Source of the DNA: Desulforamulus putei DSM 12395
GTDB taxonomy: Bacteria > Bacillota > Desulfotomaculia > Desulfotomaculales > Desulfotomaculaceae
NCBI RefSeq assembly: GCF_900129195.1
Contig: NZ_FQUY01000001.1
Coordinates: 1 to 64,000 of the forward strand
DNA: 64,000 nucleotides
Direction: 5' to 3'
Part shown: in pieces, positions 2,778 through 56,545 of the stretch
How positions within the stretch are numbered: position 1 is the stretch's first letter
How the letters are laid out: the number at the start of each line of letters is the position of its first letter
Notes under the pieces: generated by a model
Told to the model about the DNA's origin: nothing
The model's input: the letters and a program-made list of their open reading frames with translations, nothing else
Databases searched by the model: none
Translations under genes and position numbers: made by a program

Positions 2778-2945
2778 GTGCAGAAGTAAACCACCTCTGC
2801 ATATAAATATACCAGGAAGTGGCAGCACTGATAAAAAATTCCTGCCCCGAGGAAGGAGTGGTATCCCGGCCCACTCCCAGAATAATGATCCCATTGGGTT
2901 CCAGAGATTTCGGATAGAGTACGGATTCCTTAAAGCAAAGAACAT
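2778..2945. other. Gene-free spacer between convergent units
   Basis: Two convergent transcription units end on either side. Short open frames exist on both strands, but they have no RBS and no recognisable product. I see no regulatory structure. Confidence 0.5.
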
Positions 2946-2987
2946 AAAAAGAAAGAGGAGCAGTCCTGGACGCTGCTCCTCTTTCTT
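2946..2987 (-). terminator. Terminator of the minus-strand glycosyltransferase operon
   Basis: A 15-bp stem (aagaaagaggagcag at 2949-2963 with its complement at 2973-2987) is followed on the minus strand by a T run at 2946-2950. The stem overlaps the stop codon of the last gene. Confidence 0.9.
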
Positions 2988-40462: not shown

Positions 40463-40502
40463 TGTAAAGTCCCCCTATGGCATACCCTGGGTAAAAGACT
40501 TC

Positions 40503-40536
40503 AAAAAAGAGCAGGAAGGTAGGTCCTTCGCTGCTC
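40503..40536 (-). terminator. Terminator of the 147-aa unknown gene
   Basis: gagca (40509) pairs with tgctc (40536), and gaagg with ccttc, with a small internal loop. A run of six T follows on the minus strand. Confidence 0.7.
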
Positions 40537-40553
40537 CGGAATCTTTATGAAAT

Positions 40554-40997
40554 TTACTCGGGCCAGGCAGCTTGCGGGGATTTGCTGAATTTTACATCCC
40601 ACAACACATGCATTCGCAGGCTGTCATCCTGTTCAATATCACCGGATATTTTTTTGTTAGAGATCATGATGTCAAAAGGGTTTTTGACATAGTCGTCGAA
40701 CAGCAGTTTCCCGGCTTCTTCCTTCCGAAAGGCAATGGGCAGTCGTACCCCGTTCTGCCACTTCACCAGCAGCAGATACATATCTGACTCAGGGTCATAG
40801 GCCCAGCTGGGAGGGGAGTATTCTCCAGCGGCCTTTTCCAGAGGTTCTGTCCAGGCAGGATTTACCAATACCATGGTGGTGCGGGAAAATTCCTTACCGT
40901 TTTCTTCATAATTGAGATCTGCCCAGGCGCCGAAATCCGGGCTAAAGGCAGTGCTGCCATACTCCTGAATTACATCAAACTTTGGTTCTTGTGCCAT
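40554..40997 (-). CDS. Soluble protein of unknown function, 147 aa
   Basis: I do not recognise the family. The protein is acidic, with several Trp and Tyr (YGSTAFSPDFGAWADLNYEE, VLVNPAWTEPL, LLVKWQNGVRLP) and no signal peptide, Cys or membrane segment. The alternating pattern suggests mixed alpha/beta. The ATG has taggagga upstream. A second unknown gene (41060) lies just upstream on the same strand with a gap of about 60 bases, so the two may form an operon. Confidence 0.65.
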   Translation of the reverse strand: MAQEPKFDVIQEYGSTAFSPDFGAWADLNYEENGKEFSRTTMVLVNPAWTEPLEKAAGEYSPPSWAYDPESDMYLLLVKWQNGVRLPIAFRKEEAGKLLFDDYVKNPFDIMISNKKISGDIEQDDSLRMHVLWDVKFSKSPQAAWPE

Positions 40998-41059
40998 CTC
41001 CGTATTCCTCCTAAATTGAAACTTTGCTTATATTGGTCCTGTTGGACATTATTCCCTTC

Positions 41060-41383
41060 TCAAAAGAATTCAATCTGTTCCTGCTTATTTTTTACCATTT
41101 CATCCAGCAAGTTCTTGAGATCAGGACAACCTTCCTGAACCCATAACTTATAGCCTTGGGACTGCAGGACAGTCTCCGGGCGCTTTCCTGCCGTCATACC
41201 CACAAAGGTTCCGTCCAACTGCCAGATATACAAATATACTTTATCCGATGAAGGGCTGATTTGAACCTTGGCCACACACCACCGGCCTTTGTGTTTCCAA
41301 TAGATGTATTGTTGATCGATGAATTTGATATCCACAATAGATCCCCCGTAATTGCCGATCCTATACCACAATTCGCCGTTCAA
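41060..41383 (-). CDS. Small protein of unknown function, 107 aa
   Basis: The 107-aa product is Trp/Tyr-rich in its first half (LWYRIGNYGG, YIYWKHKGRWCVAKV, YLYIWQLDG) and helical at the end (LKNLLDEMVKNKQEQ). I do not recognise a family. It starts at TTG 41383 with aggat upstream, which is weak, so the start is uncertain. Its only evident partner is the 147-aa gene downstream. Confidence 0.55.
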   Translation of the reverse strand: MNGELWYRIGNYGGSIVDIKFIDQQYIYWKHKGRWCVAKVQISPSSDKVYLYIWQLDGTFVGMTAGKRPETVLQSQGYKLWVQEGCPDLKNLLDEMVKNKQEQIEFF

Positions 41384-41522
41384 ATGGAAAATCCTGTTTT
41401 GTGATGGACTGATCTTTTAAAATGGCTATGACCCATTATTTCTTGCATTTTTCTAACAGAAAAGGGTATGTATAATACTTTGTAGAAGTAACATTAAATT
41501 ACAACAATATGGAGGTTTCGTC

Positions 41523-42362
41523 ATGACCATAAAACAGGCAGTTCGGCAAGATAATTGGGGTGTTAATGTTGAAAGTCTGCCGGATTTTTGGGTAGACCCG
41601 GAGAAATTATCGGTGATACAGGACTTAATGTTTTCCGGCATTAATGTCATGCTCACCGGCGATCCCGGTACAGGGAAAACAGAACTGACCAAACGACTGG
41701 CCCGGGCCCATAACCTGCCCTTCCACCGGGTCAACGTGGGCGCCATCCGGACCCCCAGGGATTGGTTCGGCCACTGGGAATTTATCGGGGGCCAAACCGT
41801 CTTTATCCAATCCGAGTTTGTGGCAGCCATTCAGCGCCCGGGTATTGTGGCCTTGGATGAATTCAACCGGGTGACGCCGGATATTCATAACTCCATCTAC
41901 ACCATCCTGGACCACAACCGGGAAGTATATATTGAAGAAACCAAACAATACATCGCCGTCCATCCCCGCTGCATCTTCATTGCCACGGAAAACCGCGGCC
42001 GCAGCCATACAGGCACCTTTATGGAAGATACCGCAGTGGAAGACCGTTTTGAAACCATTGAGCTAACGCTGCCACCCGTAGAAGTGATGGCCGACCTGCT
42101 GGAAAAAGTCTACGGGGCCACCCCGGACCACGCCCTGCTGCTGGCCAGGATCACCCATAAACTAAACAGCCTGTACCACGAAGAAAGCCTGAGCCGTCCC
42201 ACCGGCTTCCGCCCCGCCATTTCCGCCGCCGCGCTGGTAAAAAGGGGACAACCCCTGAATACCGCCCTCAAATACACCTTTGTAAACCGCTTCTCCCCCG
42301 AAGGCGGCGTAGACAGCGAGCAGACCACGGTACTGCAGGTGATACAGGCGTATTTAAAGTAA
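41523..42362 (+). CDS. MoxR-family AAA+ ATPase
   Basis: This 279-aa chaperone-like ATPase has Walker A GDPGTGKT (46-53), Walker B IVALDEFNR (108-116), sensor-1 IFIATENRG and an arginine-finger-type segment (VEDRFETIEL). MoxR/NorQ/CbbQ ATPases usually remodel or insert cofactors into a partner together with a VWA protein, which is encoded next (42486). ATG 41523 has atggaggt upstream. The 123-base gap to the VWA gene contains a hairpin. The client enzyme is not in this window. Confidence 0.88.
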   Translation: MTIKQAVRQDNWGVNVESLPDFWVDPEKLSVIQDLMFSGINVMLTGDPGTGKTELTKRLARAHNLPFHRVNVGAIRTPRDWFGHWEFIGGQTVFIQSEFVAAIQRPGIVALDEFNRVTPDIHNSIYTILDHNREVYIEETKQYIAVHPRCIFIATENRGRSHTGTFMEDTAVEDRFETIELTLPPVEVMADLLEKVYGATPDHALLLARITHKLNSLYHEESLSRPTGFRPAISAAALVKRGQPLNTALKYTFVNRFSPEGGVDSEQTTVLQVIQAYLK

Positions 42363-42396
42363 CACTGAAGGAAGTGGAATCGGCAAGAGTTACGAA

Positions 42397-42425
42397 GCCT
42401 GGCACACCCGTAAGGTATGCCAGGC
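42397..42425 (+). other. Perfect hairpin between the MoxR and VWA genes
   Basis: gcctggca (42397-42404) and tgccaggc (42418-42425) pair around a 13-base loop. No T run follows, so it is not an intrinsic terminator. It may stabilise or process the bicistronic message. Confidence 0.5.
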
Positions 42426-42485
42426 TGGATAACCTTACAGACTCACACCAATAAAAACAAACCTCAGTATCGGAGGTGAAACTCA

Positions 42486-44285
42486 ATGGCCCTGCCAACC
42501 CAAGCAGAGTCCTGGAAAAACAAAAGCCTGTCCGACTTTTGGCTCACCGGCCGGGGTCTCGACAATAACAAAAACGGCAACGGGCAGCCATATGCCCTCT
42601 TCAGCCATAAACTCCTCGCCTCCGAAGACACCGACGCCCAGGCCATGGCCCTGACTGCCATTCTGGGGGCTGTCTCCCGGGTGGTGGACATCGTACACGG
42701 ACGCAACAAATTCACCGTCAATTTCAGCTCCAAAGAAACCCGAACCGACTTTGTCGCCAAACAAATCGCCCTCAGTGCGGAACCTTTGTTTAACCCGCCT
42801 AGGGGTTACTTAATGCCGGACATCGTGGATGTGCTGACCGGCATGGCCCTGCATGAGGCCGCCCATGCCCAGTACAGCTCCCCGGAATACTACACCGAAA
42901 TGCCCGGCAACCCCTTTATGGCGGTGATCCGCAACGTGGTGGAAGACACCTATGTGGAACACCTGACCACCCTGTACTACCCGGGTTACGCAGGCTATTT
43001 TTGGAAGTACCGTCGCTATGAGTTTGACCTGGACCCTGACAAATGGGCCCATAAACCCCGCAAAAACCTGATGGAAAACGAGCTTAATTTACGTGCCACA
43101 GACTTTCTGCTGGTGATGCGATCCACCAGGGACTATGTTTCCCGGGTGGCCAGAGTAAACCATGTGGCGGATATGCTCAAAAAAATGATCTACATTGATA
43201 ACCCGGTCCGGTTGGAGAAACTGAACACCCGAACGGTGTCCAGAAGAATTTACGATGAACTCTTCGGCAACCTGGTGCAGCATGATATTGCCTATTCACT
43301 GCCCAGTTCCTTGCTTGATTACAACAACCGGGGCAAACACCAGGGGGAGCCCGGCAGCGCCGGCGCCAACAATAAAACCAATATTCCCAGTGACTTGCAA
43401 AACCTCATTCAAAACATGCGCCAGGAACAGCTGCAAGTTGCCAATATGAGCGAATTAATGGAAGCGGGTCTCGACCCCGATTACCCGCCGCCCCCGCCGC
43501 CCATGGTGGTTTTCCGCAGGCCGTTAACAGACGAAGGGGCTGCTGAAAGGTATGAACAGGCCCGCAGCGTGGTAAAACCCTTTGTTATTCGGTTGAGAAA
43601 CCGTTTGAGCTGGGCCAACACCCGGCAGGTCATCAACCGGTATCACCTCCCCAGCGGCGAATTGGACGAAGATTCTCTTTACCAGGCCAGGTTTTCCAAC
43701 AAGATATTTCGCCGTACGGAAATTATCGAAACCCGTACCCGCAAGTTGGACATCGGCCTGCTGGTGGACACCAGCGCTTCCATGGTTTACCCCGCAGGGG
43801 AAGGCATCTCCAGAGTTCAGTTGGCCCGCAACCTGGCAGCCCTGTTTGTGGAGGCTCTGGAGCCGGTTGATTCGGTGCAAACCTGGGTGTTTGGTTTTAA
43901 CCTGAAGGGCGCAGTGAATATGTACGAGTTATACTCACCCGGATTAACAAACAAAGCCCGTATCGGCATGACCGGGGCGGAAGGAACTACGCCGGAGGGA
44001 ACCGCTTTAAAATATGCCGCACTCCGGTTAATGTCGGAAGGCCGCCCCTTTGTGCAAAAGGTTTTAATTGTCATCGCGGACGGCAAACCCAATCCCGGTC
44101 CGGAGACCAGGATGGTGAAAGAACAAGTAAGGCGTTTGAAGGCCCTGGGTTGCAAGACCATTAATATTCTGGTAGGAGACCGCCCCCAGGAATATGGTTA
44201 CGAATACGTCATCCCGTGGACTGATTATTATACTGTCACCACCGAATTTGGCCGGCTGCTGAAGAAACTGGTTGAGGAAGAATAG
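42486..44285 (+). CDS. VWA-domain protein with HEAAH motif, MoxR partner
   Basis: This 599-aa protein has a C-terminal VWA domain whose MIDAS motif DTSAS is at 428-432. It fits the CobT/CoxE/NorD class, which works with MoxR ATPases. The N-terminal half contains LTGMALHEAAHAQY (HEAAH at 123-127), followed by VIRNVVEDTYVEHL with downstream acidic residues. That looks like a zincin site, as in other VWA proteins with a metallopeptidase-like N-half. A Pro-rich linker (PDYPPPPPPM) and a charged helix separate the halves. The ATG has cggaggtga upstream. Whether it cleaves protein or only holds metal is unknown. Confidence 0.85.
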   Translation: MALPTQAESWKNKSLSDFWLTGRGLDNNKNGNGQPYALFSHKLLASEDTDAQAMALTAILGAVSRVVDIVHGRNKFTVNFSSKETRTDFVAKQIALSAEPLFNPPRGYLMPDIVDVLTGMALHEAAHAQYSSPEYYTEMPGNPFMAVIRNVVEDTYVEHLTTLYYPGYAGYFWKYRRYEFDLDPDKWAHKPRKNLMENELNLRATDFLLVMRSTRDYVSRVARVNHVADMLKKMIYIDNPVRLEKLNTRTVSRRIYDELFGNLVQHDIAYSLPSSLLDYNNRGKHQGEPGSAGANNKTNIPSDLQNLIQNMRQEQLQVANMSELMEAGLDPDYPPPPPPMVVFRRPLTDEGAAERYEQARSVVKPFVIRLRNRLSWANTRQVINRYHLPSGELDEDSLYQARFSNKIFRRTEIIETRTRKLDIGLLVDTSASMVYPAGEGISRVQLARNLAALFVEALEPVDSVQTWVFGFNLKGAVNMYELYSPGLTNKARIGMTGAEGTTPEGTALKYAALRLMSEGRPFVQKVLIVIADGKPNPGPETRMVKEQVRRLKALGCKTINILVGDRPQEYGYEYVIPWTDYYTVTTEFGRLLKKLVEEE

Positions 44286-44305
44286 GATTTTAAATAAGAA
44301 ATAAC

Positions 44306-44357
44306 AAAACCTGCAGGTAGGAATAAATTTTGATTCCTATTCTGCAGGTTTTCTTTT
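44306..44357 (+). terminator. Terminator of the MoxR-VWA operon
   Basis: aaaacctgcag (44306-44316) pairs with ctgcaggtttt (44342-44352), extended by gtaggaat / attcctat inside. It ends in TTTTCTTTT. Confidence 0.9.
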
Positions 44358-44648
44358 CAAGGACAATGATTGGCTATCAAAATACAGATTGACAGGTAAG
44401 AATAAGATAAAATATTTTGTCAAGTCCTTCGCGAAAAATTTTTCTAAAATAAAAAAGCAATTTGTTCATAAGAAAAAATTCGATAATGGTAAGGGGTTTT
44501 TACTACATAAAAGTATATCTTTTTATACCGAAAGAGGTAATGACAAAAATATATTGTCACTGCATAAATAATCCGCATTTACGGCCAAACTTGTAATGAT
44601 AAAGCGCAGATAAAGAAAAAGATTTTTTGTTTCAGTGTAAAAAAGTAC
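44358..44648. other. A/T-rich leader region of transposase-like unit 1
   Basis: About 290 bases with no credible gene; the 60-codon frame at 44389-44571 has no RBS and a low-complexity product. It contains TTTTGTCAA at 44415-44423, a motif shared with the other intergenic regions of this locus. Confidence 0.45.
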
Positions 44649-44677
44649 TTGAAATCAAAAAAACCTTTTGATAGCAT
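44649..44677 (+). promoter_or_regulatory. Sigma-A-type promoter of transposase-like unit 1
   Basis: TTGAAA (44649-44654), a 17-base spacer, then TAGCAT (44672-44677). The block including AAAAAAGTACTTG just upstream recurs before unit 2 with the same geometry. Confidence 0.7.
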
Positions 44678-44839
44678 AACCGCAAATGGAAGATGACAAA
44701 GAATGTCTCCCCGATAAAAATTTATAGTGATTGCAATAATTTATTTATATACAATTGTCATAAAAAAACTGTTTTCTGTGAAAGCCGAGTCGTCAATCAA
44801 TTGGATTATATTTAGCACTGGGTCTGGGGGGTGAAGGTT

Positions 44840-46231
44840 GTGTTTTTTCGCAAGATAACCACCAAGAAAAACGGCAAAGAGTATGTCTATGTGAAATTGA
44901 TTGAGAACTACCGTCAAGACGGGAAGGTCAAACAACGGGTTATTGCCAATTTTGGCAGTGTGGAAAACCTGTCCGCCGAACGGATTAATTACTTGATTGC
45001 CAGTTTGAGAAAACTACACAATGAAATTGAAACCCAGGCAAAGGATCCCGGGACTTCTGTGAACGTCACTTCACAGGCCAATGAAATCAGAAGGTATTTA
45101 AATAACTCCCCACTTAAGCGGGCTATGGTTCAACTGTTTGGAGAGCAAGCCTACGGCGTAGCAGAGGCGCTAACCATTAAATCTTTGACAGCGGGAGAAA
45201 TCAACAAGCCTGTGCAAGAGGTTTGTAAAAACATGGGACTCATTGAAGCAACCAGCCTGCAGTTCTATAACGTGATGAAAGTATTGGGCCAGGACAAAGC
45301 AAAGGACATTTTGCTGGAGAGCAGGCTTCCTGCTGCCGGTGGTAATGATAACATTCACAAAGTCGGCATCATCCATATTTTTAAAAGTATATTTGAAGGA
45401 AATTCCTTTGACGTTGATATGACGGGGAATATTTTTATGCCGCAGAGTTACCGGAAAGAAATTTTTCTGCTGGTGGCCTGCGACTGCCAGGGCGTTCCCG
45501 TTGATTTTGAATATGCGGAGGAGTCACGGGACGTCCCGGGGCAGTTGAATGTTCTGGTTAAAAGGTTGAAAAATCAATTGTCTGAAATCATGATTGTTTT
45601 GGATGAAGAAAATCTGCTCAACAACACCGTCTTACCGGTGGCAAAACCCGTACCGGTGGTACCCGGGGAAATCCTGGCATCACTGAAGGAGGGTAGTGTG
45701 CTGAAGGATAACAACTTATTCTTTCAGGTTGTCAGGTACAGTCAGCTAAGTGAAGGAAAGATCAAGGAGATCAAAGCAAAACTGGCCAGGGTCTCTGCCG
45801 GATTGGAGACCATCAAAGCAGATGTTTTACTGGGGAAATTAACCAAGGAGTCCAATGTGCGCAAGAAAGCTGACAGTGTTATTAAATCCAACCAGTGTGA
45901 GGGTTTGGTTACCTATAGCTTTAATGAGAGTGACCAGTCCTTCAGTTACAGCATTAATGAAGAAAACCTGAACCAAAAGAAGCAAGCCAAGTTTGTTACC
46001 ACCTGGGTCATTTCCGACGCCGGTGTTGCGGAACTGCAGTTTGACAATGGGCTGCATGTCAATACAGATCGGTTTCGTTTGATAACTGACCAGTTAAACA
46101 TACCGCCTATCAATTTATATGTAGACTACCATTATTCACCGGAAATCATCTCAGGCCATATACAGCTTGAGATTCTTAAAACCCAAATCCTTAACGCAAT
46201 GAACACACCGTATCAAGGGGGTGAGATATAA
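44840..46231 (+). CDS. IS1634-family transposase-derived protein, copy 1 (apparently domesticated)
   Basis: This 463-aa protein opens like IS1634-family (IS4-superfamily) transposases: FFRKITTKKNGKEYVYVKL, then YRQDGKVKQRVIANFG. The central region follows the RNase-H-like core (FDVDMTGN near the first Asp; IMIVLDEENLLNN near the second). In the C-terminal block FRLITDQLNIPPINLYVDY...GHIQLEIL, the Glu expected just before FR is replaced (NTDRFRL). I see no flanking terminal inverted repeats. GTG 44840 is chosen by alignment with copy 2 and the GGGGGTGA site. It leads a unit with a TauE-type permease and a 238-aa membrane protein. A DNA-binding regulatory role is possible. Confidence 0.75.
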   Translation: MFFRKITTKKNGKEYVYVKLIENYRQDGKVKQRVIANFGSVENLSAERINYLIASLRKLHNEIETQAKDPGTSVNVTSQANEIRRYLNNSPLKRAMVQLFGEQAYGVAEALTIKSLTAGEINKPVQEVCKNMGLIEATSLQFYNVMKVLGQDKAKDILLESRLPAAGGNDNIHKVGIIHIFKSIFEGNSFDVDMTGNIFMPQSYRKEIFLLVACDCQGVPVDFEYAEESRDVPGQLNVLVKRLKNQLSEIMIVLDEENLLNNTVLPVAKPVPVVPGEILASLKEGSVLKDNNLFFQVVRYSQLSEGKIKEIKAKLARVSAGLETIKADVLLGKLTKESNVRKKADSVIKSNQCEGLVTYSFNESDQSFSYSINEENLNQKKQAKFVTTWVISDAGVAELQFDNGLHVNTDRFRLITDQLNIPPINLYVDYHYSPEIISGHIQLEILKTQILNAMNTPYQGGEI

Positions 46232-46239
46232 AAAATCTG

Positions 46240-46260
46240 ATTTTGTCAATACAAATTGAC
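46240..46260 (+). promoter_or_regulatory. TTTTGTCAA element with 6-bp inverted repeat, unit 1
   Basis: TTTTGTCAATACAAATT at 46241-46257 is followed by GAC, giving the inverted repeat GTCAAT-acaa-ATTGAC. The same 17-base sequence recurs at 50247-50263 at the same place in unit 2. Confidence 0.55.
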
Positions 46261-46403
46261 TCTTTTTCACTTTGATTTTAGCACCTTCGCAGTGAACATT
46301 CAATACGTTGGGGCAAACAATTTAGAAAATTTTTGTCACTACTTTAAGAGAAAATTTTAACCTTAAGCGCCTTATGAAGACTTGATTAAAGGGGGTTGCC
46401 CAA

Positions 46404-47690
46404 ATGCGCGGATTGTATGAAGCCTTAATGTCCGCATCCAGGGCCCACGCCAAATGGGAACTGGAAATGTCCAATAACATTATCAGAAACAGAAAACACT
46501 TACTGATATTAGCAATTATGATGCTTCCTCTGATTATTCCGGCCATTGGTCATGCAGCAAATTTGCCTTCCTTCATCGGCGGTAAGAGCGCCTTCGGACC
46601 GTCTCACTATAACCCCACCATGTTCTACGGATCTATGGCTGTGGGTATCTGTGCCGGTCTGATTACCGGCTGCATCGGCGCCGGCGGTGGTTTTGTAATC
46701 ACTCCTGCCCTGATGAGCCTGGGTGTCAAGGGGATCCTGGCGGTGGGTACCGACCAGTTCCATATTTTTGCCAAGGCCATTATGGGTACTGTTATTCACA
46801 AAAAACTGGGCAACGTAAACGTTCCTCTGGCCATTGCCTTCCTGGTGGGTTCCGGTGTGGGTGTTACCGCCGGCGGTACCCTGAACCGGGCGCTGTTTAA
46901 CGCCAACCCTGTCTTAAGCGACTTTGTCATCAGTCTGGTTTACGTCGTTATGTTAGGTTTCCTGGGCTTTTACTCCCTGTATGATTTCTTCAAGACCAGA
47001 CACCAGACCGGCGGGGATGCCCACGGCGGTCCGGTGGGTATGACAAAGCTGGCTGTTAAATTACAAAGCATCAACCTGGCCCCCATGGTGAAGTTTGACG
47101 AAGACATCACGCCCGGCGGTCGTAAGATTTCCGGCTGGTTTGTGGCTATTTGCGGCGCCGTTGTTGGTTTTGCCGCAGCCATCATGGGCGTGGGCGGCGG
47201 CTTCCTGACCTTCCCGATGTTTGTTTACGGTTTGGGCGTATCCTCCTTCACCACCGTTGGTACCGATATTCTGCAGATTATCTTTACCGCCGGTTACAGT
47301 TCCATCGCCCAGTACGCCATCTACGGTTACATCTTCTATACCCTGGCCATGGGTATGCTGGTGGGTTCCCTGCTGGGGATTCAAATCGGCGCAGCCACCA
47401 CCAAGGTGGTTTCCGGTATCTACATCCGTGCCTTTTATGCCATTGCCATTCTGGCCGGCTTTGTGAACAGGGCCTTTGCCCTCCCGGAAAAAATGGTGCA
47501 GATGGGCTATATTCAAATGGATGCAGCTACCGGTAAACTCCTTGCGGATATTGGAGCCTGGATCTTCTTTGGTTTGGTCATTCTGTTCGCCGGCTGGATC
47601 ACCCTGAGCTTTATCAAGGGTATTCCCACCCTGAGGGCTGAAACTGCCAAAGGCGCCATGGCATCCGGCGGGAAAGGAGTGAGCCATTAA
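46404..47690 (+). CDS. TauE/SafE-type sulfite/anion permease, copy 1
   Basis: This 428-aa protein has an unusual N-terminal region (MRGLYEALMSASRAHAKWEL) before a hydrophobic segment ending at GHAANLPS. A TauE/SafE core follows with the two hallmark Gly-rich repeats: TGCIGAGGGFVITPAL and MGVGGGFLTFPMF, each with a following VGTD motif. Eight or so membrane segments follow the family plan. TauE/SafE proteins export sulfite, sulfoacetate or other sulfur anions; direction and substrate here are not known. The gene shares a leader (gggggttgccc) with copy 2 and touches the next gene (TAATG overlap). Confidence 0.85.
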   Translation: MRGLYEALMSASRAHAKWELEMSNNIIRNRKHLLILAIMMLPLIIPAIGHAANLPSFIGGKSAFGPSHYNPTMFYGSMAVGICAGLITGCIGAGGGFVITPALMSLGVKGILAVGTDQFHIFAKAIMGTVIHKKLGNVNVPLAIAFLVGSGVGVTAGGTLNRALFNANPVLSDFVISLVYVVMLGFLGFYSLYDFFKTRHQTGGDAHGGPVGMTKLAVKLQSINLAPMVKFDEDITPGGRKISGWFVAICGAVVGFAAAIMGVGGGFLTFPMFVYGLGVSSFTTVGTDILQIIFTAGYSSIAQYAIYGYIFYTLAMGMLVGSLLGIQIGAATTKVVSGIYIRAFYAIAILAGFVNRAFALPEKMVQMGYIQMDAATGKLLADIGAWIFFGLVILFAGWITLSFIKGIPTLRAETAKGAMASGGKGVSH

Positions 47691-48406
47691 TGATAAGAGA
47701 CAGCAAAGCCTTTTTTATCGGGCTCGTTATGATGGTGTCTTTCCTGGGCATTTACGCTTATATGATGAGCCCGTCCTTCGGCAACGGCAGAAACGGGTTG
47801 GAGTTTGCCGATGATATGTTCAACTCCATTTCCAAGGGTTCTGTTTATGATGTAATACAAGGTGAAGTTAAAAAGATCGATAAGTGGAACGGCACTGAAA
47901 TTGAGGTTGTTTTAAAGTGTAAAGATGAGGCGCAGGCCGACAGGTGGTCCAGGGCTTTACAAAAGGTGGAGGGTTCACAGGTCAGCGTTGATGGGCAAAA
48001 CGTTAAAGTCAAGGCCGACCTGGGCAAGTTACTGGCCAACATCTCCGAAGACTGTTCCAATATGTATGATAATAACGGCGATGCCGTACAGCAAAAATAC
48101 GGTACCGACCCCAGGGATGCCACCAACCGCTGGTACAGCATTACCAAGGCCATTGTAAAAGAATTGGAAAAGCAGGAGAGGTTTAAAGAGTCCGTTGCCA
48201 TCACCCAGTTCCAGAAAAAAGTTATTGAGCCTTCCTACAACTACTACGGGGTAGAAGCCAAGAAGGTCAGGGACAACAGCGGTGTGATGACCTTTATGAT
48301 GGTGTTCTACCTGATCTACACACTGTGGTATGGCTTCGCCATCTACTACCTGTGCCAGGGACTGGGCATTACCATGAGTAAATCCGCTAAAAAGCAAGAA
48401 GCATAA
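47690..48406 (+). CDS. 238-aa two-pass membrane protein of unknown function, copy 1
   Basis: One N-terminal (residues 8-26) and one C-terminal (about 200-222) hydrophobic segment frame a soluble domain of about 170 residues. Landmarks are MMSPSFGNGRNGLEFADDMFNSISKGS, GKLLANISEDC and DPRDATNRWYSITKAI. It starts on the stop codon of the permease gene, so coexpression is tight, and the pairing is repeated in unit 2. It is probably an accessory subunit of the permease. I do not recognise a named family. Confidence 0.75.
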   Translation: MIRDSKAFFIGLVMMVSFLGIYAYMMSPSFGNGRNGLEFADDMFNSISKGSVYDVIQGEVKKIDKWNGTEIEVVLKCKDEAQADRWSRALQKVEGSQVSVDGQNVKVKADLGKLLANISEDCSNMYDNNGDAVQQKYGTDPRDATNRWYSITKAIVKELEKQERFKESVAITQFQKKVIEPSYNYYGVEAKKVRDNSGVMTFMMVFYLIYTLWYGFAIYYLCQGLGITMSKSAKKQEA

Positions 48407-48438
48407 CAAAAAACACCCCGACCGGGGTGTTTTTTGTT
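48406..48438 (+). terminator. Terminator of unit 1
   Basis: aacaaaaaacacccc / ggggtgttttttgtt around a 4-base loop. Confidence 0.95.
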
Positions 48439-48698
48439 GGTAGTAAGCCTGATAATCTTAGATAGCATTTTCTATTTTTGTCAATGCTTTTTATGAGTCT
48501 TACACCAAATAAATAACCTGTTAACATGCGCCGGAAAGTATGGACATCTTACAGAAAGGGGTAAAAATGTCTTTTTTTAAGAAAAGACAAATGACAAATT
48601 ATATATGTCAGATCAGTAATTTTCTGGTCTGAAGCGTTTTTTTGTAGAGATAAAAATCTATATGCCTGGAATTTTTTTATTTTTGTGCAAAAAAGTAC
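48439..48698. other. Leader region of transposase-like unit 2
   Basis: A/T-rich, no gene. Contains TTTTGTCAAT at 48476-48485, the shared motif of this locus. Confidence 0.45.
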
Positions 48699-48727
48699 TT
48701 GCAATAATAAAACCTATTTGCTACTAT
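48699..48727 (+). promoter_or_regulatory. Sigma-A-type promoter of transposase-like unit 2
   Basis: TTGCAA (48699-48704), 17 bases, then TACTAT (48722-48727), preceded by the same AAAAAAGTACTTG block as in unit 1. Confidence 0.7.
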
Positions 48728-48833
48728 TTGCGCAAAGTTAAGAGACAAAAAGCAAGGAGTTTAAATATTATTACACAAAAAATATAAGCATTAAAATACA
48801 AATTATTTATTAAAAAGGATTGGGGGTGAAGGC

Positions 48834-50246
48834 GTGTTTTTTCGCAAAATCACTACCAGGAAAAACGATAAAGAATATGTCTATATCAAGCTTATAGAAA
48901 ATTACCGTGCCAACGGTAAAGTGAAACAGCGTGTAGTGGCGAACTTCGGCAGCATTGAAAACCTTTCGCCCGGCCGGATCAATGATTTGATCATCAGTTT
49001 AAAAAAGCTCTACAAAGAAATTGCAACACAGGATCATAAAAATTTGGATGGCAGTGAAATAACACCTCAGATCCCCGGGCTCAAGGATCTTTTGTATAAA
49101 ACAAGAATCATACAGGAACTGCGCAACGTAATCCACCGGCAGCAGACCTGTCAAATTATAGAAGCGCTGATTATTAAGTCAATGCTTGCTTCGGAAATGA
49201 AGATGCCAGTTCATGAGTTCTGCAGGCAAACGGGATTGGCAGAGGCCAACAGCATACAATTCTACAATGCATTAAGAAGTCTGGGAGAAGAACCAACCCG
49301 GATTCCCTTGATTAAGGCGAGACTGCCGGAGATCTCCCAGGGGGAGAACATCCACAAACCTGTCTATATTCACATGGTCAGCAGTGTTTTTCAAGGACAT
49401 TCCTATGATGTAGATATGGCCGGCAGCATTTATTCAGCACAGAATTACAGGAAATTATTTACACTTCTGCTGGCTTGTGATGAAGAAAGCAATCCTGTTG
49501 ACTTTGAGGTTGTGGAAGACGACAATCTGATGTCGGAAAAAATGAATCTGCTGATTAACCGCCTGACCGGCTATTTAACAGGAAATATTGTTGTCCTGGA
49601 CGGGAAAAACTGCCTGGACGAAAGTTCTGCTCCATATCCGGTGGCAAAGCAAGCCCGGGAGATCCCCAAAGAAGCTGACTTGTCCTTAATGTCACAAGGC
49701 CGGGCGGTTTATGAAGGTAAAATATTCTTTCATACCATCCGGTCAGAACAAAAGGATGAGGCGGAGATTAAAGAAATTAAAGCGAATCTGGCCAAGGTTT
49801 TTGCAGGGCTGGAAAATATCAGGGCAGATATTCTGCTGGGCAAATTAAATAAAGAGACACAGGTCAGAAAAAGAGCGGATGCAGTAATTAAAGCCAATCA
49901 TTGCCAGGACTTGGTGGCTTACCAATTTAATGAAGCCGGCCAAACCTTTGATTACCGGGTCAAAGAGGAAGCGCTCAAAGAAAAAACACAATCTGTGGCT
50001 AAAACAACCTGGGTCCTTCCAGGAGAAAAACTAAAACAGGGGCAGATGATTAACAACGTCAAACTAAAAACTGACCGGTTTGATGTCTTAACCGATCAGT
50101 TGAATATCCCGCCCATCAATATGTTTGCAGACTATCATTACTCACCGGAAATAATCTCAGGGCATGTTGTCCTGGAGATTATTAAAAAACAGATAGCCGT
50201 GGCAGACAAAATACCACAGCAAGGGGGTGAGATCCAAATAAATTAA
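48834..50246 (+). CDS. IS1634-family transposase-derived protein, copy 2 (apparently domesticated)
   Basis: This 470-aa paralogue of 44840-46231 shares FFRKITTRKN, KEYVYIKLIENYR, GKVKQRVVANFGSIENLS, YDVDMAG, IVVLDGKN and the C-terminal TDRFDVLTDQLNIPPIN and YHYSPEIISGH. As in copy 1, Thr-Asp-Arg replaces the segment where the third acidic catalytic residue is expected. The middle third is clearly diverged from copy 1, while the ends are well kept, so selection acts on the protein. GTG 48834 has GGGGGTGA 7 bases upstream. It again precedes a permease/membrane-protein pair. Confidence 0.75.
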   Translation: MFFRKITTRKNDKEYVYIKLIENYRANGKVKQRVVANFGSIENLSPGRINDLIISLKKLYKEIATQDHKNLDGSEITPQIPGLKDLLYKTRIIQELRNVIHRQQTCQIIEALIIKSMLASEMKMPVHEFCRQTGLAEANSIQFYNALRSLGEEPTRIPLIKARLPEISQGENIHKPVYIHMVSSVFQGHSYDVDMAGSIYSAQNYRKLFTLLLACDEESNPVDFEVVEDDNLMSEKMNLLINRLTGYLTGNIVVLDGKNCLDESSAPYPVAKQAREIPKEADLSLMSQGRAVYEGKIFFHTIRSEQKDEAEIKEIKANLAKVFAGLENIRADILLGKLNKETQVRKRADAVIKANHCQDLVAYQFNEAGQTFDYRVKEEALKEKTQSVAKTTWVLPGEKLKQGQMINNVKLKTDRFDVLTDQLNIPPINMFADYHYSPEIISGHVVLEIIKKQIAVADKIPQQGGEIQIN

Positions 50247-50263
50247 TTTTGTCAATACAAATT
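50246..50263 (+). promoter_or_regulatory. TTTTGTCAA element, unit 2
   Basis: TTTTGTCAATACAAATT (50247-50263) matches the unit 1 element exactly. It lies immediately after the transposase-like gene, about 150 bases before the permease. The right half of the inverted repeat is lost (ATTTCC). Confidence 0.55.
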
Positions 50264-50413
50264 TCCTCTTTTCAAAATTAATTTTAACATCGTATTTGGC
50301 AATAATCAATAGGCTTTGATCAGAATTTATTGATTTTTTTGTCATCACAGCAGGCTGAACGTTTAAATGTAAGCACCTTTTTTACCTAAAACAGACTGAA
50401 GGGGGTTGCCCGC

Positions 50414-51709
50414 ATGAGGGGATTGTATGAAGCTCTGATGAGCGCCTCCAGGGCCCACGCCAGATGGGAACTGGAAATGTCCAACAACATTATCAGAAGC
50501 AGAAAACATTTGCTCATTTTATTCATCATGATGCTGCCCTTGATAATCCCGGCTATCGGCCATGCCGCTGATCTGCCGTCCTTCCTGGGAGGCAAAAGCG
50601 CCTTTGGACCGTCGCACTTTACACCCTTTATGTTCTACGGTTCCATGGCCGTAGGTGTTTGCGCCGGCTTAATTACCGGTTGTATCGGTGCCGGCGGCGG
50701 TTTCGTTATCACCCCTGCTCTGATGAGCCTAGGCGTGAAAGGGATCCTGGCTGTAGGTACCGACCAGTTCCACATTTTTGCCAAGGCCATCATGGGTACC
50801 GTCATTCACAAAAAACTTGGCAACGTCAACGTATCTCTGGTCATTGCCTTCCTGATCGGTTCCGGCATCGGGGTCACCGGCGGCGGTACCCTGAACCGGG
50901 CCCTGTTTAACGCCAACCCTGTCTTAAGCGACTTTGTGATCAGTACCGTTTACGTGGTTATCTTAGGTTTCCTGGGCTTCTACTCCCTGTATGACTTTAT
51001 TACCACCAGGGGTAAAGTGGCCAAAGCAGCCAAAGGAGATGCCCACGGCGGCCCCATCGGGATGACCAAATTGGCCATCAAACTGCAGAGCATTAACCTG
51101 GCCCCCATGATTAAGTTCGACGAAGACATCACCCCCGGCGGACGTAAGATTTCCGGTTGGTTCGTAGCGCTGTGCGGCTGCGTCACCGGTTTCCTGGCCG
51201 CCATCATGGGCGTGGGCGGCGGCTTCGTAACCTTCCCGATGTTTGTCTACGGCCTGGGCGTATCCTCCTTCACCACCGTGGGTACCGATATCCTGCAGAT
51301 TATCTTCACCGCCGGTTACAGCTCCATCGCCCAGTACGCCATCTACGGCTACATCTTCTACACCCTGGCCATGGGGATGCTGGTGGGCTCCCTGCTGGGG
51401 ATCCAAATCGGCGCAGCCACCACCAAGGTGGTTCCCGGCATCTACATCAGAGCCTTTTACGCCATCGCCATCCTGGCCGGCTTCGTAAACAGAGCCTTTG
51501 CCCTGCCGGAGAAAATGGCTCAAATGGGCTATATTAAAATGACTCCCGAAACCGGCAAATTACTGGCTGATATCGGCGCCTGGATCTTCTTCGGGTTGGT
51601 CATCCTCTTCGCAGGCTGGATCATCATCAGCTTTATCCGCGGCATTCCTGCCTTGCGAGCGGAAACCGCAAATACCGTCGTAACGGAAGGGAAAGGAGTG
51701 GGCCATTAA
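50414..51709 (+). CDS. TauE/SafE-type sulfite/anion permease, copy 2
   Basis: This 431-aa protein is nearly identical to the copy at 46404 along most of its length, including the odd N-terminus MRGLYEALMSASRAHARWEL and both Gly-rich TauE motifs. It differs mainly by a short insertion after ITTRGKVAKAAKGDAHGG and in the last 30 residues. The DNA is also very similar but richer in G/C-ending codons. It overlaps the start of the partner gene. Selection for two expressed copies suggests a dosage or specialisation benefit. Confidence 0.85.
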   Translation: MRGLYEALMSASRAHARWELEMSNNIIRSRKHLLILFIMMLPLIIPAIGHAADLPSFLGGKSAFGPSHFTPFMFYGSMAVGVCAGLITGCIGAGGGFVITPALMSLGVKGILAVGTDQFHIFAKAIMGTVIHKKLGNVNVSLVIAFLIGSGIGVTGGGTLNRALFNANPVLSDFVISTVYVVILGFLGFYSLYDFITTRGKVAKAAKGDAHGGPIGMTKLAIKLQSINLAPMIKFDEDITPGGRKISGWFVALCGCVTGFLAAIMGVGGGFVTFPMFVYGLGVSSFTTVGTDILQIIFTAGYSSIAQYAIYGYIFYTLAMGMLVGSLLGIQIGAATTKVVPGIYIRAFYAIAILAGFVNRAFALPEKMAQMGYIKMTPETGKLLADIGAWIFFGLVILFAGWIIISFIRGIPALRAETANTVVTEGKGVGH

Positions 51710-52425
51710 TGATAAGAGACAGCAAAGCCTTTTGGATCGGCATCCTCATGTTGCTATCCTTCTGCGGGATCTACGTCTATATGATGAGCCCGTCCTTCGG
51801 CAACGGCAGAAACGGGCTGGAGTTTGCCGATGACATGTTTAACTCTATCTCCAAGGGTTCCGCCCAGGCCGTTGTTTTTGGTGAAATCAAAAAAGCTGAA
51901 AAATGGAACGGCACCGCCATTGAGGTGAACCTGAAGTGCAAGGACGAAGCCCAGGCCGGGAGATGGTCAGCTGCCCTGCAAAAGGTGGACGGCGCTGAAA
52001 TAATGGTGGATAAGGAGAAAATCGCCCTCAAGACCGACCTTGGCAAACTGCTGGCCAACATTTCAGAAGACTGCAAGGCCATGTATGAGAATAAAGGCGA
52101 TGTTGTGCAGGCCAAATACAACACTGATCCCAGGGATGCCACCAACCGGTGGTACAGCATCACCAAGTCCATCGCCAAGGAATTAGAAAAGAAGCAGCAG
52201 TTTAAGGAATCCATTTACCTGCAAACCTTCCAGAAGAAGGTTATCGAGCCGGCCTACAACTACTACGGTGTTGAGACTAAGTTTGTCAAAGACAATAAAG
52301 GTGTGATGACCTTCATGCTGGTCTTCTACCTGGTCTACACCATCTGGTACGGTTTCGCCATCTACTACATCTGCGTAGGTCTCGGTATCACCATGACCAA
52401 GGCGGCTAAAAAATCTGAGGCATAG
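51709..52425 (+). CDS. 238-aa two-pass membrane protein of unknown function, copy 2
   Basis: This is a paralogue of 47690-48406 with the same length and ends (MIRDSKAFWIGI, MMSPSFGNGRNGLEF, DPRDATNRWYSITK, GVMTFMLVFYLVYTIWYGFAIYY). The central domain is more diverged (about two thirds identical by eye) than the permease. It is read directly after the permease with a TAATG overlap. Confidence 0.75.
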   Translation: MIRDSKAFWIGILMLLSFCGIYVYMMSPSFGNGRNGLEFADDMFNSISKGSAQAVVFGEIKKAEKWNGTAIEVNLKCKDEAQAGRWSAALQKVDGAEIMVDKEKIALKTDLGKLLANISEDCKAMYENKGDVVQAKYNTDPRDATNRWYSITKSIAKELEKKQQFKESIYLQTFQKKVIEPAYNYYGVETKFVKDNKGVMTFMLVFYLVYTIWYGFAIYYICVGLGITMTKAAKKSEA

Positions 52426-52435
52426 CGCCTTTCAC

Positions 52436-52468
52436 AAAAAACACCCCTCTCTGCCGGGGTGTTTTTTT
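52436..52468. terminator. Bidirectional terminator between unit 2 and the ACR3-like gene
   Basis: aaaaaacacccc / ggggtgttttttt around 8 bases. A/T runs flank both sides, so it can end both the plus-strand unit and the minus-strand gene at 52518. Confidence 0.9.
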
Positions 52469-52517
52469 GCCTTTTCAAGGATGTAAGATGACAGGTTAAA
52501 ATTGAATACAATACGTT

Positions 52518-53519
52518 TTAATTTGCTTGTTTATAGGGCAGGCCGGACCAAAGGATCTGGATCCGGTGCGATAGCTTGTAATAAGTGGCCATAAAGATGA
52601 CCTGCACCAGGGGCATGATGGCCACCACCACCACTGTAAGGGGAGAGAAGAACAGCACCGCAATGGCCAGCGAGATGGCCAGGTTTTTCCCGGCAATGCT
52701 GAAGGAGACGGCTGCCATGTCCTGGTAACCCAGGTTCAGCAGGCGCGACAGCCCGGCTGAAAGGGCGAAAAGTGTCGGGTAAAAGAATAAAGCCGGTACA
52801 ATCAGTTTTAAGAGATAATCGGGGTGCTGTACCAGTTGGCGTGATTGGGCGGATAACGAAATAAAAAATAACACGTACATACCAAGGGAAGAAACCGCCG
52901 GGAAATTCGGTTTGATCTGTAGAAAGAATTCCCGGCCATATTTTTTTAATATAATAGAACGGGTTATTGTCCCCAGCAGCATGGGGATCACAATAATGGA
53001 AACCACCGTTTTCATCATCCCCAACGGGTCGATAGGCACGTATTTCCCTGCCAGCAGCGTCATCCAGAATGGGATCAAAAAAATCCCCGTCAGGTAACTT
53101 AAGGTCGTTACCAGCAGAGCCACCGGAACGCTGCCCCGGGACATGCCGGTCCAGGTTACCACCATACCGGCACAGGGAACCGTACCGATTAAAATGAGTC
53201 CCACGGCAAATTCAGGGTAGGAAGACAAAAAGGTATTGGCCAGCAGAAAAGCCAGCAGGGGGGAGATGGTAAAGTTAACCCCAATGGCCAAGGCAATGAC
53301 TTTAAAGCGTGTCAAAGCCTGTTTTAGTTCGGCGAACTCCAGGCCAATCATCATCGGGTAAAGCATAACGAACAGGCAGGCCGGGGAGAAGGGCTGCAGC
53401 ACACGCCCCACACCGGGATAAAGGTAACCAAACAAGGTGGAAAAACAGATTACACTAACTAAAACCCTTATTACATTACGATTGATAAAATGAGTAAATG
53501 TAAAAAAAAGATTTGACAT
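52518..53519 (-). CDS. ACR3/bile-acid-symporter-type transporter (arsenite efflux candidate)
   Basis: This 333-aa membrane protein has about ten hydrophobic segments. It carries the BASS/ACR3 pattern: MLYPMMIGLEFAELKQAL, LIGTVPCAGMVVTWTGMSRG (with the Cys of ACR3 transporters) and SFSIAGKNLAISLAIAVLFF. ACR3 proteins export arsenite; related BASS members carry organic anions, so the arsenite call is provisional. No arsR or arsC is adjacent. Confidence 0.75.
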   Translation of the reverse strand: MSNLFFTFTHFINRNVIRVLVSVICFSTLFGYLYPGVGRVLQPFSPACLFVMLYPMMIGLEFAELKQALTRFKVIALAIGVNFTISPLLAFLLANTFLSSYPEFAVGLILIGTVPCAGMVVTWTGMSRGSVPVALLVTTLSYLTGIFLIPFWMTLLAGKYVPIDPLGMMKTVVSIIVIPMLLGTITRSIILKKYGREFFLQIKPNFPAVSSLGMYVLFFISLSAQSRQLVQHPDYLLKLIVPALFFYPTLFALSAGLSRLLNLGYQDMAAVSFSIAGKNLAISLAIAVLFFSPLTVVVVAIMPLVQVIFMATYYKLSHRIQILWSGLPYKQAN

Positions 53520-53713
53520 ATCCTCACCGGCTTATATTTTTAGTATTCTAAACTTTATTGTACGATACATAATCAGCCTTGTGTAGTCAAATAATGGCAC
53601 TTGGTACCTGAGTTATTAAGTTATTGAAGCGGAGGGTTAAAAATTTACAGCGCAGACGGTATTTGATAAGATGGAACTGTAGTTTCTATATATATTGTTT
53701 TTGAGGTGAATGT

Positions 53714-55036
53714 ATGGATTTATTCAGTTCATCCAGAATGAGCTTGCAGGCGGCGCCCCTGGCTGAAAGGATGCGCCCACGGAACCTGGATGACTTTATC
53801 GGGCAGGAACATATCGTGGGCAAGGGCAAATTGCTGCGCCGGGCCATTGAAGCGGACAAGTTGGGATCCATCATACTCTACGGCCCGCCGGGGACCGGCA
53901 AAACCACACTGGCTACCATTATATCAGAAATGACCGCTGCCAATTTTGTTAAAATTAATGCCGTATCGGCTGGGGTCGCTGAAATCAGGACCGAGATTCA
54001 AAGGGCCAGAGATAACTTGAACTACTATGGCAAAAGGACCATCTTTTTTATAGATGAAATTCATTCTTTAAAACGAGGGGCCCAGCAGGACTGTTTGTTG
54101 GAAGCGGTGGAGAAGGGAGAAGTCATCCTGATCGGGGCCACCACAGAAAACCCCTATTTTGAGCTGAACGGTGCGCTGTTAAGCCGGTCGCGCATTTTCC
54201 GGTTGACAGAGCATCGTGAAGAGGACTTGCGCCGACTTATTCAGCGTGCCCTGGCAGACGAAGAAAAGGGTTTAGGGATGTACAAAGTAAAGCTGGATGA
54301 GGAAGCCGTACAGCACTTCATCAATATTTCCGGCGGGGACGCCCGAAATGTTTTAAATGCTTTGGAGCTTGCTGTTTTATCAACCGCCCCGGCCCAAGAC
54401 GGTTTCCGGCACATTACCCTGGAGGTGGCGGAGGACTCCACCCAGCAAAGATACATCCGCTATGATAAATCAGGCGACAACCATTATGATGTAATATCCG
54501 CTTTTATAAAGAGTATCCGGGGCTCAGACCCGGACGCGGCGCTCCATTATTACGCCCGCATGACAGCGGCGGGAGAAGATCAGCGTTTTATTGTTCGCCG
54601 GTTAATTGTTCATGCATCCGAAGATATCGGTATGGCCGATCCCCAGGCCATGCTGATGGCCCATGCGGCATGGAACGCCCTGGAAACCGTCGGCATGCCC
54701 GAAGCCCGCATCCCCATTGCCCAGTGTATTATTTATCTGGCCACTGCCCCCAAAAGTAACAGTGTTATCTGTGCCATTGATAAAGCCCTGGAGGACATTA
54801 AAAAGAAGCCCATCGGCAGCGTGCCGCCTCACCTAAGAGACACCCATTACCGGGGCGCCAGGGAATTGGGGCATACCGGCTACAAATATCCCCATGACTA
54901 CCCGGGTCATTATGTGGAACAGCAATATATGCCCGATGAACTGCAGGGCGTGATCTACTACAGGCCCGGCGACCAGGGAAAGGAAAAATGTATAAAAAAT
55001 AATCTCCCTAAAAATGTCAAAGGAATAACGGGTTAA
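53714..55036 (+). CDS. rarA: Replication-associated recombination ATPase RarA (MgsA)
   Basis: This 440-aa AAA+ clamp-loader-like ATPase acts at stalled forks. It has [16 protein letters not shown], Walker [11 protein letters not shown] (about 54-63), Walker [11 protein letters not shown], sensor-1 [14 protein letters not shown], and an MgsA C-terminal domain ([20 protein letters not shown] onwards, ending YRPGDQGKE). The ATG has gaggtga upstream. Length and motifs are normal. Confidence 0.94.
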
Positions 55037-55086
55037 ATGGAGAATTATTGCCATATAACCTATTACAACCTGAAGGGGGATGCGGG

Positions 55087-55842
55087 TTGAGCGAATTGGC
55101 GAACCAGGCAATTAAGCTGGCCAAACGGCAGGCCCAACTGGCCTATTTGGATATCACGGAGCGAGAAGTGCAGATTATGGTCGCTCATAAGGACCTGTTC
55201 ACCAGGGAAGCGGACCGGACGGTGGATAACTTTTATAGACATGTGCTGAATTTCCCCTACCTGAAGGAACTGATTGCCAAATACAGCACCGTGGACCGTT
55301 TAAAAGAGACGCAGAAGCAATATTTTATTTCCCTGTGCGATCCCATTGACGAAGAGTACATTGCAAGAAGGCTGGCCATCGGCAAGAAACACCAGCAAAT
55401 CGGACTGTATCCCAAATGGTATTTGGGGTCCTATCAAATTTATAACGCAGAAATCCAGCGTATCCTGGCTAACCATCACGGCAGCTGTGCCGAAGCCTAC
55501 GCCGAGGCCTTGGTGGCCTTTTTAAAAAGGCTGAACCTGGATATGCAGCTGGCCATTGAAAACTATATTCTGGATCAACTGCAGCAATTAATCTCCTTCC
55601 AGCAGGACATTGGTTCGGTGGCTGAGATCATTGACGACATTGCCGAGCAGACCAACATGCTGTCCCTGAACGCCTCTATTGAGGCGGCCAGGGCAGGGGA
55701 CCATGGCCGCACCTTTGCGGTGGTGGCTCAGGAAGTAAGAAAACTGGCCGAGAGGTCTTCCCAGTCTGCCAAAGATATCGCACAAATGGTCATTTCCAAC
55801 CAGCAGGCCATTGAGAAAATGAAAAAATCAGCCGAAGAATAA
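55087..55842 (+). CDS. Short soluble globin-coupled sensor (HemAT-like) with reduced MCP signalling domain
   Basis: This 251-aa protein has a protoglobin/HemAT-type sensor domain (residues 20-170). The proximal His is H102 in [20 protein letters not shown], so it should bind haem and sense O2 or another gas. The C-terminal 80 residues are only the tip of a methyl-accepting signalling domain ([34 protein letters not shown]). HemAT proteins are usually about 430 aa, so the long coiled coil and methylation region are missing. No membrane segment. TTG 55087 has aaggggga 7 bases upstream; TTG 55048 has none. Confidence 0.82.
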
Positions 55843-55870
55843 CGCTTGCTTTGTCAATCGGTTTGGTGTA

Positions 55871-55902
55871 AAAGGGACAGACCACGGACCTGTCCCTTTT
55901 TG
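55871..55902 (+). terminator. Terminator of the globin-sensor gene
   Basis: aaagggacag pairs with ctgtcccttt around 9 bases, followed by TT. Confidence 0.88.
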
Positions 55903-55915
55903 GATCTGTTTTTCA

Positions 55916-56545
55916 TCATGCCTCTTCCGTCAAATGTACCCACTCTTCCAGATAATGATCCAGATCGGCTTTCCTTTGATTTAATTCCTCACTCAGTTTT
56001 AAATAAGCGGTATAGTCCCGTGAAATTTCCGGTTTAGCCAGTTCTCCTTCTATAGAAAGGATATCCTCTTCGCGGCTGATGAGGCTCTCCAGTTCTTCTA
56101 TTCTCTTTTGCCGCTTTCTTTCCTGCCTTTGCTGCTCTTTGCTCGCAAGATAATGCTGTTTCCCCGGTTGGGGTTTGAGCGGCGCCTTTTTCTCCCGGTC
56201 TTCTTCCGTTGATGTCAAAGGAAAAATGGATCTGTTTTTGTTTGGGCGCCGGAGCTTCCACTGATTCCATTTTCTCCAGCGCCTTCAGACGGCTCCGGGC
56301 ACTTTTGGCGGTGGCAGCCCGAACCATATTGCGTTGAATAAAATCCTGGGCCCGGTCTATTTCTTCCTGCTGCTTGTTTAAGCAGGGCTTCCTGCTGCCG
56401 GGCCTTGAGGTCGATAAAGCCGGAATAATTGGTTTTATAGGTTTTGGCAGTACCAAACTCCAGTTCTATAATTTTGCCGGCAACTTTATCTAAAAAGTAG
56501 CGGTCGTGGGAAACCACCAGGACCGCCCCGGGATAGGACTGCAGA
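55916..56545 (-). pseudogene. Decayed ABC-F ATPase gene, C-terminal remnant with two frameshifts
   Basis: Read on the minus strand from about 56545, the sequence gives LQSYPGAVLVVSHDRYFLD (the ABC H-loop) and ELEFGTAKTYKTNYSGF. Near 56390 the frame shifts and continues KQQEEIDRAQDFIQRNMV to QKQIHFSFD. Near 56215 it shifts again and ends with a Lys/Glu coiled-coil tail (EELESLISREEDIL). This is the C-terminal third of an ABC-F ribosome-associated ATPase. The Walker motifs and N-terminal two thirds are absent upstream of 56545. It is not expected to be functional. Confidence 0.85.

Follow-up and report, generated by a model that had tools for sequence, protein, structure and literature searches.

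Why a transposase-like gene should lie directly upstream of a permease gene, and do so twice in succession, is the question raised by the first 64,000 nucleotides of contig NZ_FQUY01000001.1 of Desulforamulus putei DSM 12395 (this whole stretch is called the window below). Its forward strand contains two head-to-tail copies of a three-gene unit (unit 1, 44840-48406; unit 2, 48834-52425), which encode, in this order, a transposase-derived protein (A), a TauE/SafE-family permease (B) and a 238-amino-acid protein (C). The gene order and its repetition had been described in an earlier interpretation made without database searches (the sequence-only reading), and the genes were confirmed in both copies. 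It had also been suggested there that A might be a domesticated DNA-binding regulator and, as far as the sequence goes, this is the role that fits A best. On balance, we favour the interpretation that A is a domesticated, transposition-dead IS1634 transposase, which now acts as a transcription regulator of sulfur-anion transport.

Origin of protein A and constraint on its sequence

A1 (44840-46231, + strand; GTG start, 463 amino acids) was recognized as a transposition-dead IS1634-type transposase derivative by homology and by its catalytic positions, and A2 (48834-50246, + strand; GTG start, 470 amino acids) is 49% identical to it. True, multi-copy insertion sequence (IS) elements of the IS1634 family occur in related genomes, and their transposases match the models NF033559 and DDE_Tnp_1. 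When the A family was aligned with these elements profile to profile (hhalign), a probability of 100 and an E value of 8e-58 were obtained over 518 columns, which substantiates the label 'transposase-derived' that A had received on sight. The homology covers the whole length of A. NF033559 itself was matched by 26 of 43 A-family proteins (best E value 4.6e-80); A2 of the window gave no match to this model, and no significant Pfam or NCBIfam match was found for the window copies of A or C.

Each residue of the catalytic D-D-E triad was present in 16 of 16 IS proteins. Among 44 A-family proteins the first Asp was found in none, the second in 17 and the Glu in two; in A1 the first Asp is replaced by His and the Glu by Thr. 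The 44 A genes form one clade, whose branch has full support against the IS proteins (Shimodaira-Hasegawa-like approximate likelihood ratio test, 100). Judged by its sequence, A is a transposase derivative and almost certainly unable to transpose, given the IS1634 homology together with the loss of the triad. It shares with the IS1634-family transposases (NF033559; DDE_Tnp_1) the whole protein, the N-terminal block and the element order, and differs from them in lacking the first Asp in all cases and the Glu in most. Whereas IS1634 elements are multi-copy and have ends, A is low-copy, has no IS ends and has been kept vertically beside transporter genes.

Constraint is distributed very unevenly along the protein. 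The ratio of nonsynonymous to synonymous substitution rates (dN/dS) was 0.016-0.03 for residues 1-62 and 0.12-0.14 for the rest, and all columns conserved in at least 90% of 43 A proteins fall within residues 2-56. In the AlphaFold model of A2 (mean predicted local distance difference test score 85.7) residues 2-67 comprise three strands and one helix; the remainder is a mixed body, which is RNase H-like, retained and confidently folded. The best Foldseek matches of the model in the PDB were the ISCth4, then the Mos1 and Tn5 transposases, with low TM-scores. Loss of catalysis and purifying selection on the N-terminal domain, presumed to be DNA-binding, are thus both found in A, and it is this domain that would contact DNA.

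Neighbouring transporter genes and the conserved DNA element

Comparison of gene order in relatives, which the sequence-only reading had recommended, placed A near TauE genes (often with C) across the families of the class Desulfotomaculia, a group of spore-forming, largely sulfate-reducing bacteria. Since a genome contains only 3-13 TauE genes, this repeated adjacency is not expected by chance. Further neighbours of A in the different families encode Na/sulfate-type DASS symporters, CitMHS transporters, CBS-domain proteins and a CoA-transferase, and HdrB, HdrC and HdrA-like (Qmo-type) genes adjoin A-transporter loci in several families. In one genome (G087) the order is A, DASS, CBS, CitMHS, HdrB, HdrC, two HdrA-like genes, aprA, aprB and sat; in another (G014) an HdrA-like-HdrCB-aprA cluster is located some 10 kb from A. 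The proposed fixed linkage between the transposase-like gene and the permease therefore stands across the class, whereas its restriction to the A-TauE-C arrangement does not, because DASS, CitMHS, CBS, CoA-transferase and hdr/qmo genes are associated with A as well. A DASS gene near sat-aprAB is described for D. gibsoniae in the available part of the survey by Marietou et al. 2018 (PMC5840216).

The DNA 5' of the A, TauE, DASS, CBS and CitMHS genes is enriched in a shared element, TTGTCACTAC. In the main units of the genus the inverted repeat TGACA-N9-TGTCA was found upstream of 13 of 13 full-length A genes (12 exact, one with one mismatch). In the window these proposed operators are at 44541-44559 for A1 and 48592-48610 for A2, and they account for two of the three places in the genome where the extended palindrome occurs with at most one mismatch. 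They precede promoter-like sequences on the + strand that are kept in the genus alignment (TTGAAA-N17-TAGCAT at 44649-44677 for A1, TTGCAA-N17-TACTAT at 48699-48727 for A2). A half-site, TGACAAAG (44694-44701, + strand), directly 3' of the A1 -10 box is preserved in most genus copies. Further half-sites are present in the A-B gap across the genus; in the window, all on the + strand, these are TTTGTCAATA (46242-46251) and TTTGTCACTA (46332-46341), the latter being the class-wide form of the element, between A1 and B1, and TTTGTCAATA (50248-50257) and TTTGTCATCA (50338-50347) between A2 and B2. The element also lies on both sides of A1, forming an inverted pair of 14 bp (GTAATGACAAAAAT / GTAGTGACAAAAAT).

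In the other length classes of A (see below), an unsupervised count of 8-mers recovered the same word as the genus element: TTGTCACT was present in 16 of the 20 long loci (0.7 expected) and GTCACTAC in 12 of 20 (0.5 expected). Gaps 5' of A, TauE, DASS, CBS, CitMHS and CoA-transferase genes contained 24 copies of TAGTGACAA in 22.9 kb, compared with four in 39.5 kb of other gaps (p 1e-7), and in one genome (G049) four of the six sites genome-wide are within 5 kb around A. The element occurs in trans as well. It was found upstream of a CoA-transferase gene in nine of nine genus genomes, mostly as a pair 55 bp apart, and between this gene and a 340-amino-acid TauE in the four genus genomes examined in detail; the CoA-transferase adjoins A in four genomes with the middle type of A, with the element no more than 500 bp upstream in three of them. 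Paralogous CoA-transferases had it in 0 of 16 cases. The orthologous CoA-transferase/TauE pair was found in no A-lacking genome, so it gives no comparison between genomes with and without A.

Sixteen element sites precede a same-strand TTGnnn-N16-18-TAnnnT pair, 12 of them at exactly 17 bp, and one site does so in the opposite direction; several of these sites are orthologous, and perhaps five independent contexts are represented. At six loci (L054, L056, L059, L060, L065 and L067), directly downstream of A, TAGTGACAA is located 15-18 bp before a promoter-like pair that reads into A from its 3' side, which would suit the control of an antisense transcript. Beside TTGTCACTAC, the same transporter promoters repeatedly show CRP/FNR-like palindromes (TTGTGnAATATTnCACAA or TGTGAN6TCAC) (intergenic DNA of L054, L055, L060, L065, L067 and L070; L129, L131, L137 and L138). 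Genuine IS1634 elements of related genomes have ends that read roughly CTCAA(G/C)TTTGACACTTT, and TTTGACACT of these ends differs from TTTGTCACT of the element by one base. This likeness is a suggestive rather than conclusive sign of a link between A and the element.

Proposed role of A, its alternatives and the age of the unit

In the mechanism that we envisage, an IS1634-family DDE transposase was immobilized early in the class and lost catalysis, and its N-terminal three-stranded domain would have been kept as a sequence-specific DNA-binding module. A would bind half-sites of the form TTGTCA(C/T/A)TAC and inverted pairs near its own promoter, as well as the same sites at the promoters of TauE-C, DASS, CitMHS, TauE/CoA-transferase and CBS genes, and specific binding would be expected to putative targets consisting of GTAGTGACAA or TGACA-N9-TGTCA DNA. 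On the inverted pairs it would probably bind as a dimer, via the N-terminal domain. By binding the element A would autoregulate its own gene and adjust how strongly sulfur-anion transporters are expressed, both in cis and in trans. The position of the site exactly 17 bp 5' of a -35-like box at many loci is compatible with activation, but some of the promoter-like pairs read into A from its 3' side, and A may act in either sense. The CBS-domain protein and the nearby CRP/FNR-like site are candidates for further input.

Several observations weigh against a regulatory role exerted through this element. Its likeness to the IS ends (TTTGTCACT versus TTTGACACT) is short and includes a mismatch. Of the genomes with A, 23 of 37 carry the element at B-type TauE genes, as do two of the eight without A (p 0.11); for its exact form the counts are 11 of 37 and none of eight, respectively (p 0.17), neither difference being significant. 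The palindrome is missing at the diverged third A of one genome (G008, locus L040) and at the A of another (G009), a number of promoter-like pairs read into A from its 3' side, and another factor could be the binder of the element. The alternative that survives best, although we consider it rather unlikely, is that A was domesticated for another role (architectural DNA binding, partnership with the membrane proteins or nucleic-acid sensing), and that TTGTCACTAC belongs to another regulator. The lack of significance in the comparison of genomes with and without A would agree with this, as would the retention of a confidently folded RNase H-like body; the frequent presence of a CRP/FNR-like palindrome beside the element means that another regulator probably acts at these promoters. 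Against it stand the concentration of the element at the gene for A itself, its presence on both sides of A1 in inverted orientation and its likeness to IS1634 ends, as well as the constraint on A, which is far stronger in the N-terminal domain than anywhere else.

The distribution of A bears on the remaining alternatives. Genus relatives have one to three copies per genome. The proteins fall into length classes of about 460 amino acids (the genus of the window), about 490-530 (several other families) and about 545-580 (others), and long-type relatives are present in named records of Desulfotruncus arcticus and D. alcoholivorax. When a phylum sample of 398 genomes was searched with long and middle A queries, clear A-family matches were obtained only inside the class, and two matches outside it scored like IS elements. 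No IS-type ends were found around A. The sequence-only reading had named a mobile transposase gene, unlinked to the permease in relatives, as the finding that would speak against it; A proved to be immobile, low-copy, without an intact D-D-E triad and permease-linked, and different from the true multi-copy IS1634 elements.

It is very improbable that A is a decaying, functionless transposase fossil. In a 72%-complete draft genome (G007; L038, contig C54) both A copies are in pieces through stops or frameshifts, which may reflect either decay or an assembly error; orthologues are intact across the class, however, A is under purifying selection in four species pairs (dN/dS 0.11-0.20), and two copies have been retained since before most of the genus radiated (see below). 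With dN/dS well below 1 and retention this long, the possibility was ruled out.

The amino-acid identity between units 1 and 2 is 49.2% for A, 89.0% for B and 74.4% for C. This gradient had been remarked upon in the sequence-only reading and judged odd for a recent tandem duplication unless A evolved fast or under diversifying selection. The two units also match in the promoter region of A, in the gap between A and B and at the terminator that follows C, as had been stated for promoters and terminators; the terminator-like hairpins, each followed by a T-run, are at 48408-48436 and 52435-52468 (+ strand). Eight genus genomes and one sister genome supplied the sequences for separate trees of A, B and C, another check recommended at the outset. 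The copy-1 and copy-2 genes of most species fall into separate groups, similarly in all three trees (one genome, G004, is an unclear case), which places the duplication of the unit before the diversification of most of the genus. Pairwise synonymous divergence (dS, NG86) between the copies was 0.78 for B, 1.66 for C and saturated for A, which likewise shows that the duplication is not recent. Median end branches were 0.42 for A, 0.12 for C and 0.047 for B, and dN/dS in shared genus genome pairs was 0.13-0.20, 0.03-0.10 and 0.015-0.06, respectively. The duplication of the A-TauE-C unit is older than most of the genus, and the identity gradient reflects unequal constraint over equal time, A evolving fast under purifying selection. 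The gradient is thus not odd: the fast evolution of A was correctly anticipated, and the dN/dS values speak against diversifying selection. A recent duplication in which A diverged under diversifying selection, to which only the gradient itself would lend support, has very little probability left, and was rejected on account of the trees and the dN/dS values.

The proposed course of events is that the whole unit was doubled before the species of the genus split and that both copies were mostly retained. A second B-C pair without A adjoins the first unit in two genus members, and the genome of the window (G000) has a third TauE-C pair without A (L130, positions 2845-4841, contig C12), so that an A gene next to it is not required for B-C to persist. 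At a comparable position G008 (L040) still carries a diverged third A.

The weakest alternative, in which A is an IS1634 element that is or recently was active and came to lie beside a permease by chance, has the whole-length homology in its favour and is ruled out by the sequence, as the first Asp is missing in 44 of 44 proteins and the Glu in 42 of 44, the genome of the window holds just two A copies, both inside the tandem unit, the neighbourhood recurs in many families, and the only inverted repeat flanking A1 is the operator-like one of 14 bp, which is unlike IS ends.

The permease, protein C and relation to known systems

B1 (46404-47690, + strand; 428 amino acids) and B2 (50414-51709, + strand; 431 amino acids, 89% identical to B1) are members of PF01925 (124 and 120 bits against a gathering cut-off of 32.6; E values 8.4e-36 and 1e-34). 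Their reading frames overlap those of C1 (47690-48406, + strand) and C2 (51709-52425, + strand; 74% identical to C1) in the sequence TAATG in both units. Both C proteins have 238 amino acids and probably reside in the membrane: the model has a long helix at either end, likely transmembrane, and a small, soluble alpha/beta middle domain. Searches assigned C to no Pfam family, and its fold had no significant match in the PDB. It belongs to a family conserved class-wide, usually encoded directly 3' of a long TauE, and is likely a partner of the permease. When the search for B-type TauE was widened to the phylum, only one genome outside the class was added. A leader, AAGCACCTT (50371-50379 before B2; AAGCGCCTT, 46365-46373, before B1; both + strand), sits 30-45 bp 5' of B-type TauE starts, also in genomes without A, and could serve in Shine-Dalgarno pairing or as a factor site. 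A scan of 40000-56000 against Rfam gave no family at gathering score. A defence role was considered and found no support, PADLOC giving no match for the A or C proteins of the window or for the long A.

The cargo of B is probably a sulfur anion, to which the linkage of A-family loci with hdr/qmo, apr and sat genes in other families points. TSUP genes were found in every sulfate reducer surveyed, with their function unassigned, according to the available part of that survey (PMC5840216). B is like these TSUP/TauE-SafE permeases in being a PF01925 member; the long B type with its partner C and an upstream transposase-derived gene is not described in the same part of the survey. The main text of the published D. 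reducens proteome and surfaceome papers contains no mention of these genes under TauE, SafE, DUF81 or transposase.

Plants and animals have well-known transcription factors that descend from transposases. Eukaryotic examples are FHY3/FAR1, derived from MULE (PMC13306707), and the ZBED proteins, derived from hAT (PMC3606216). Like A, these are transposition-dead transposase relatives kept as DNA-binding regulators, a function that for A is probable; unlike them, A is bacterial, stems from a different transposase family and is linked to small operons, its regulatory activity being a prediction. TldR proteins, derived from TnpB, offer a bacterial parallel to the proposed role of A as a regulator originating from a transposon-encoded protein. 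They are RNA-guided transcription factors (PMC13418256). TldR has lost nuclease activity and uses a guide RNA, whereas A is related to DDE transposases and its candidate DNA-binding part is a protein domain. In the available part of a review on the recruitment of prokaryotic mobile elements (PMC8987985) DDE transposases are not mentioned, and the recruited transcription factors are helix-turn-helix and ribbon-helix-helix proteins.

Tentatively, and with less confidence than we place in the regulatory role itself, we suggest that a bacterial DDE transposase may have been converted once, in the ancestor of the class, to a dedicated regulator of dissimilatory sulfur-anion transport, with operators that perhaps arose from its terminal repeats (TTTGACACT to TTTGTCACT). 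If this is true, a dead DDE transposase found class-wide together with its candidate operator would provide a tractable bacterial case of such a conversion, with active relatives in related genomes for comparison. A may well be hidden by automatic annotation as 'IS1634 transposase', and would then represent an overlooked regulator through which Gram-positive sulfate reducers control the transport of sulfate or sulfite.

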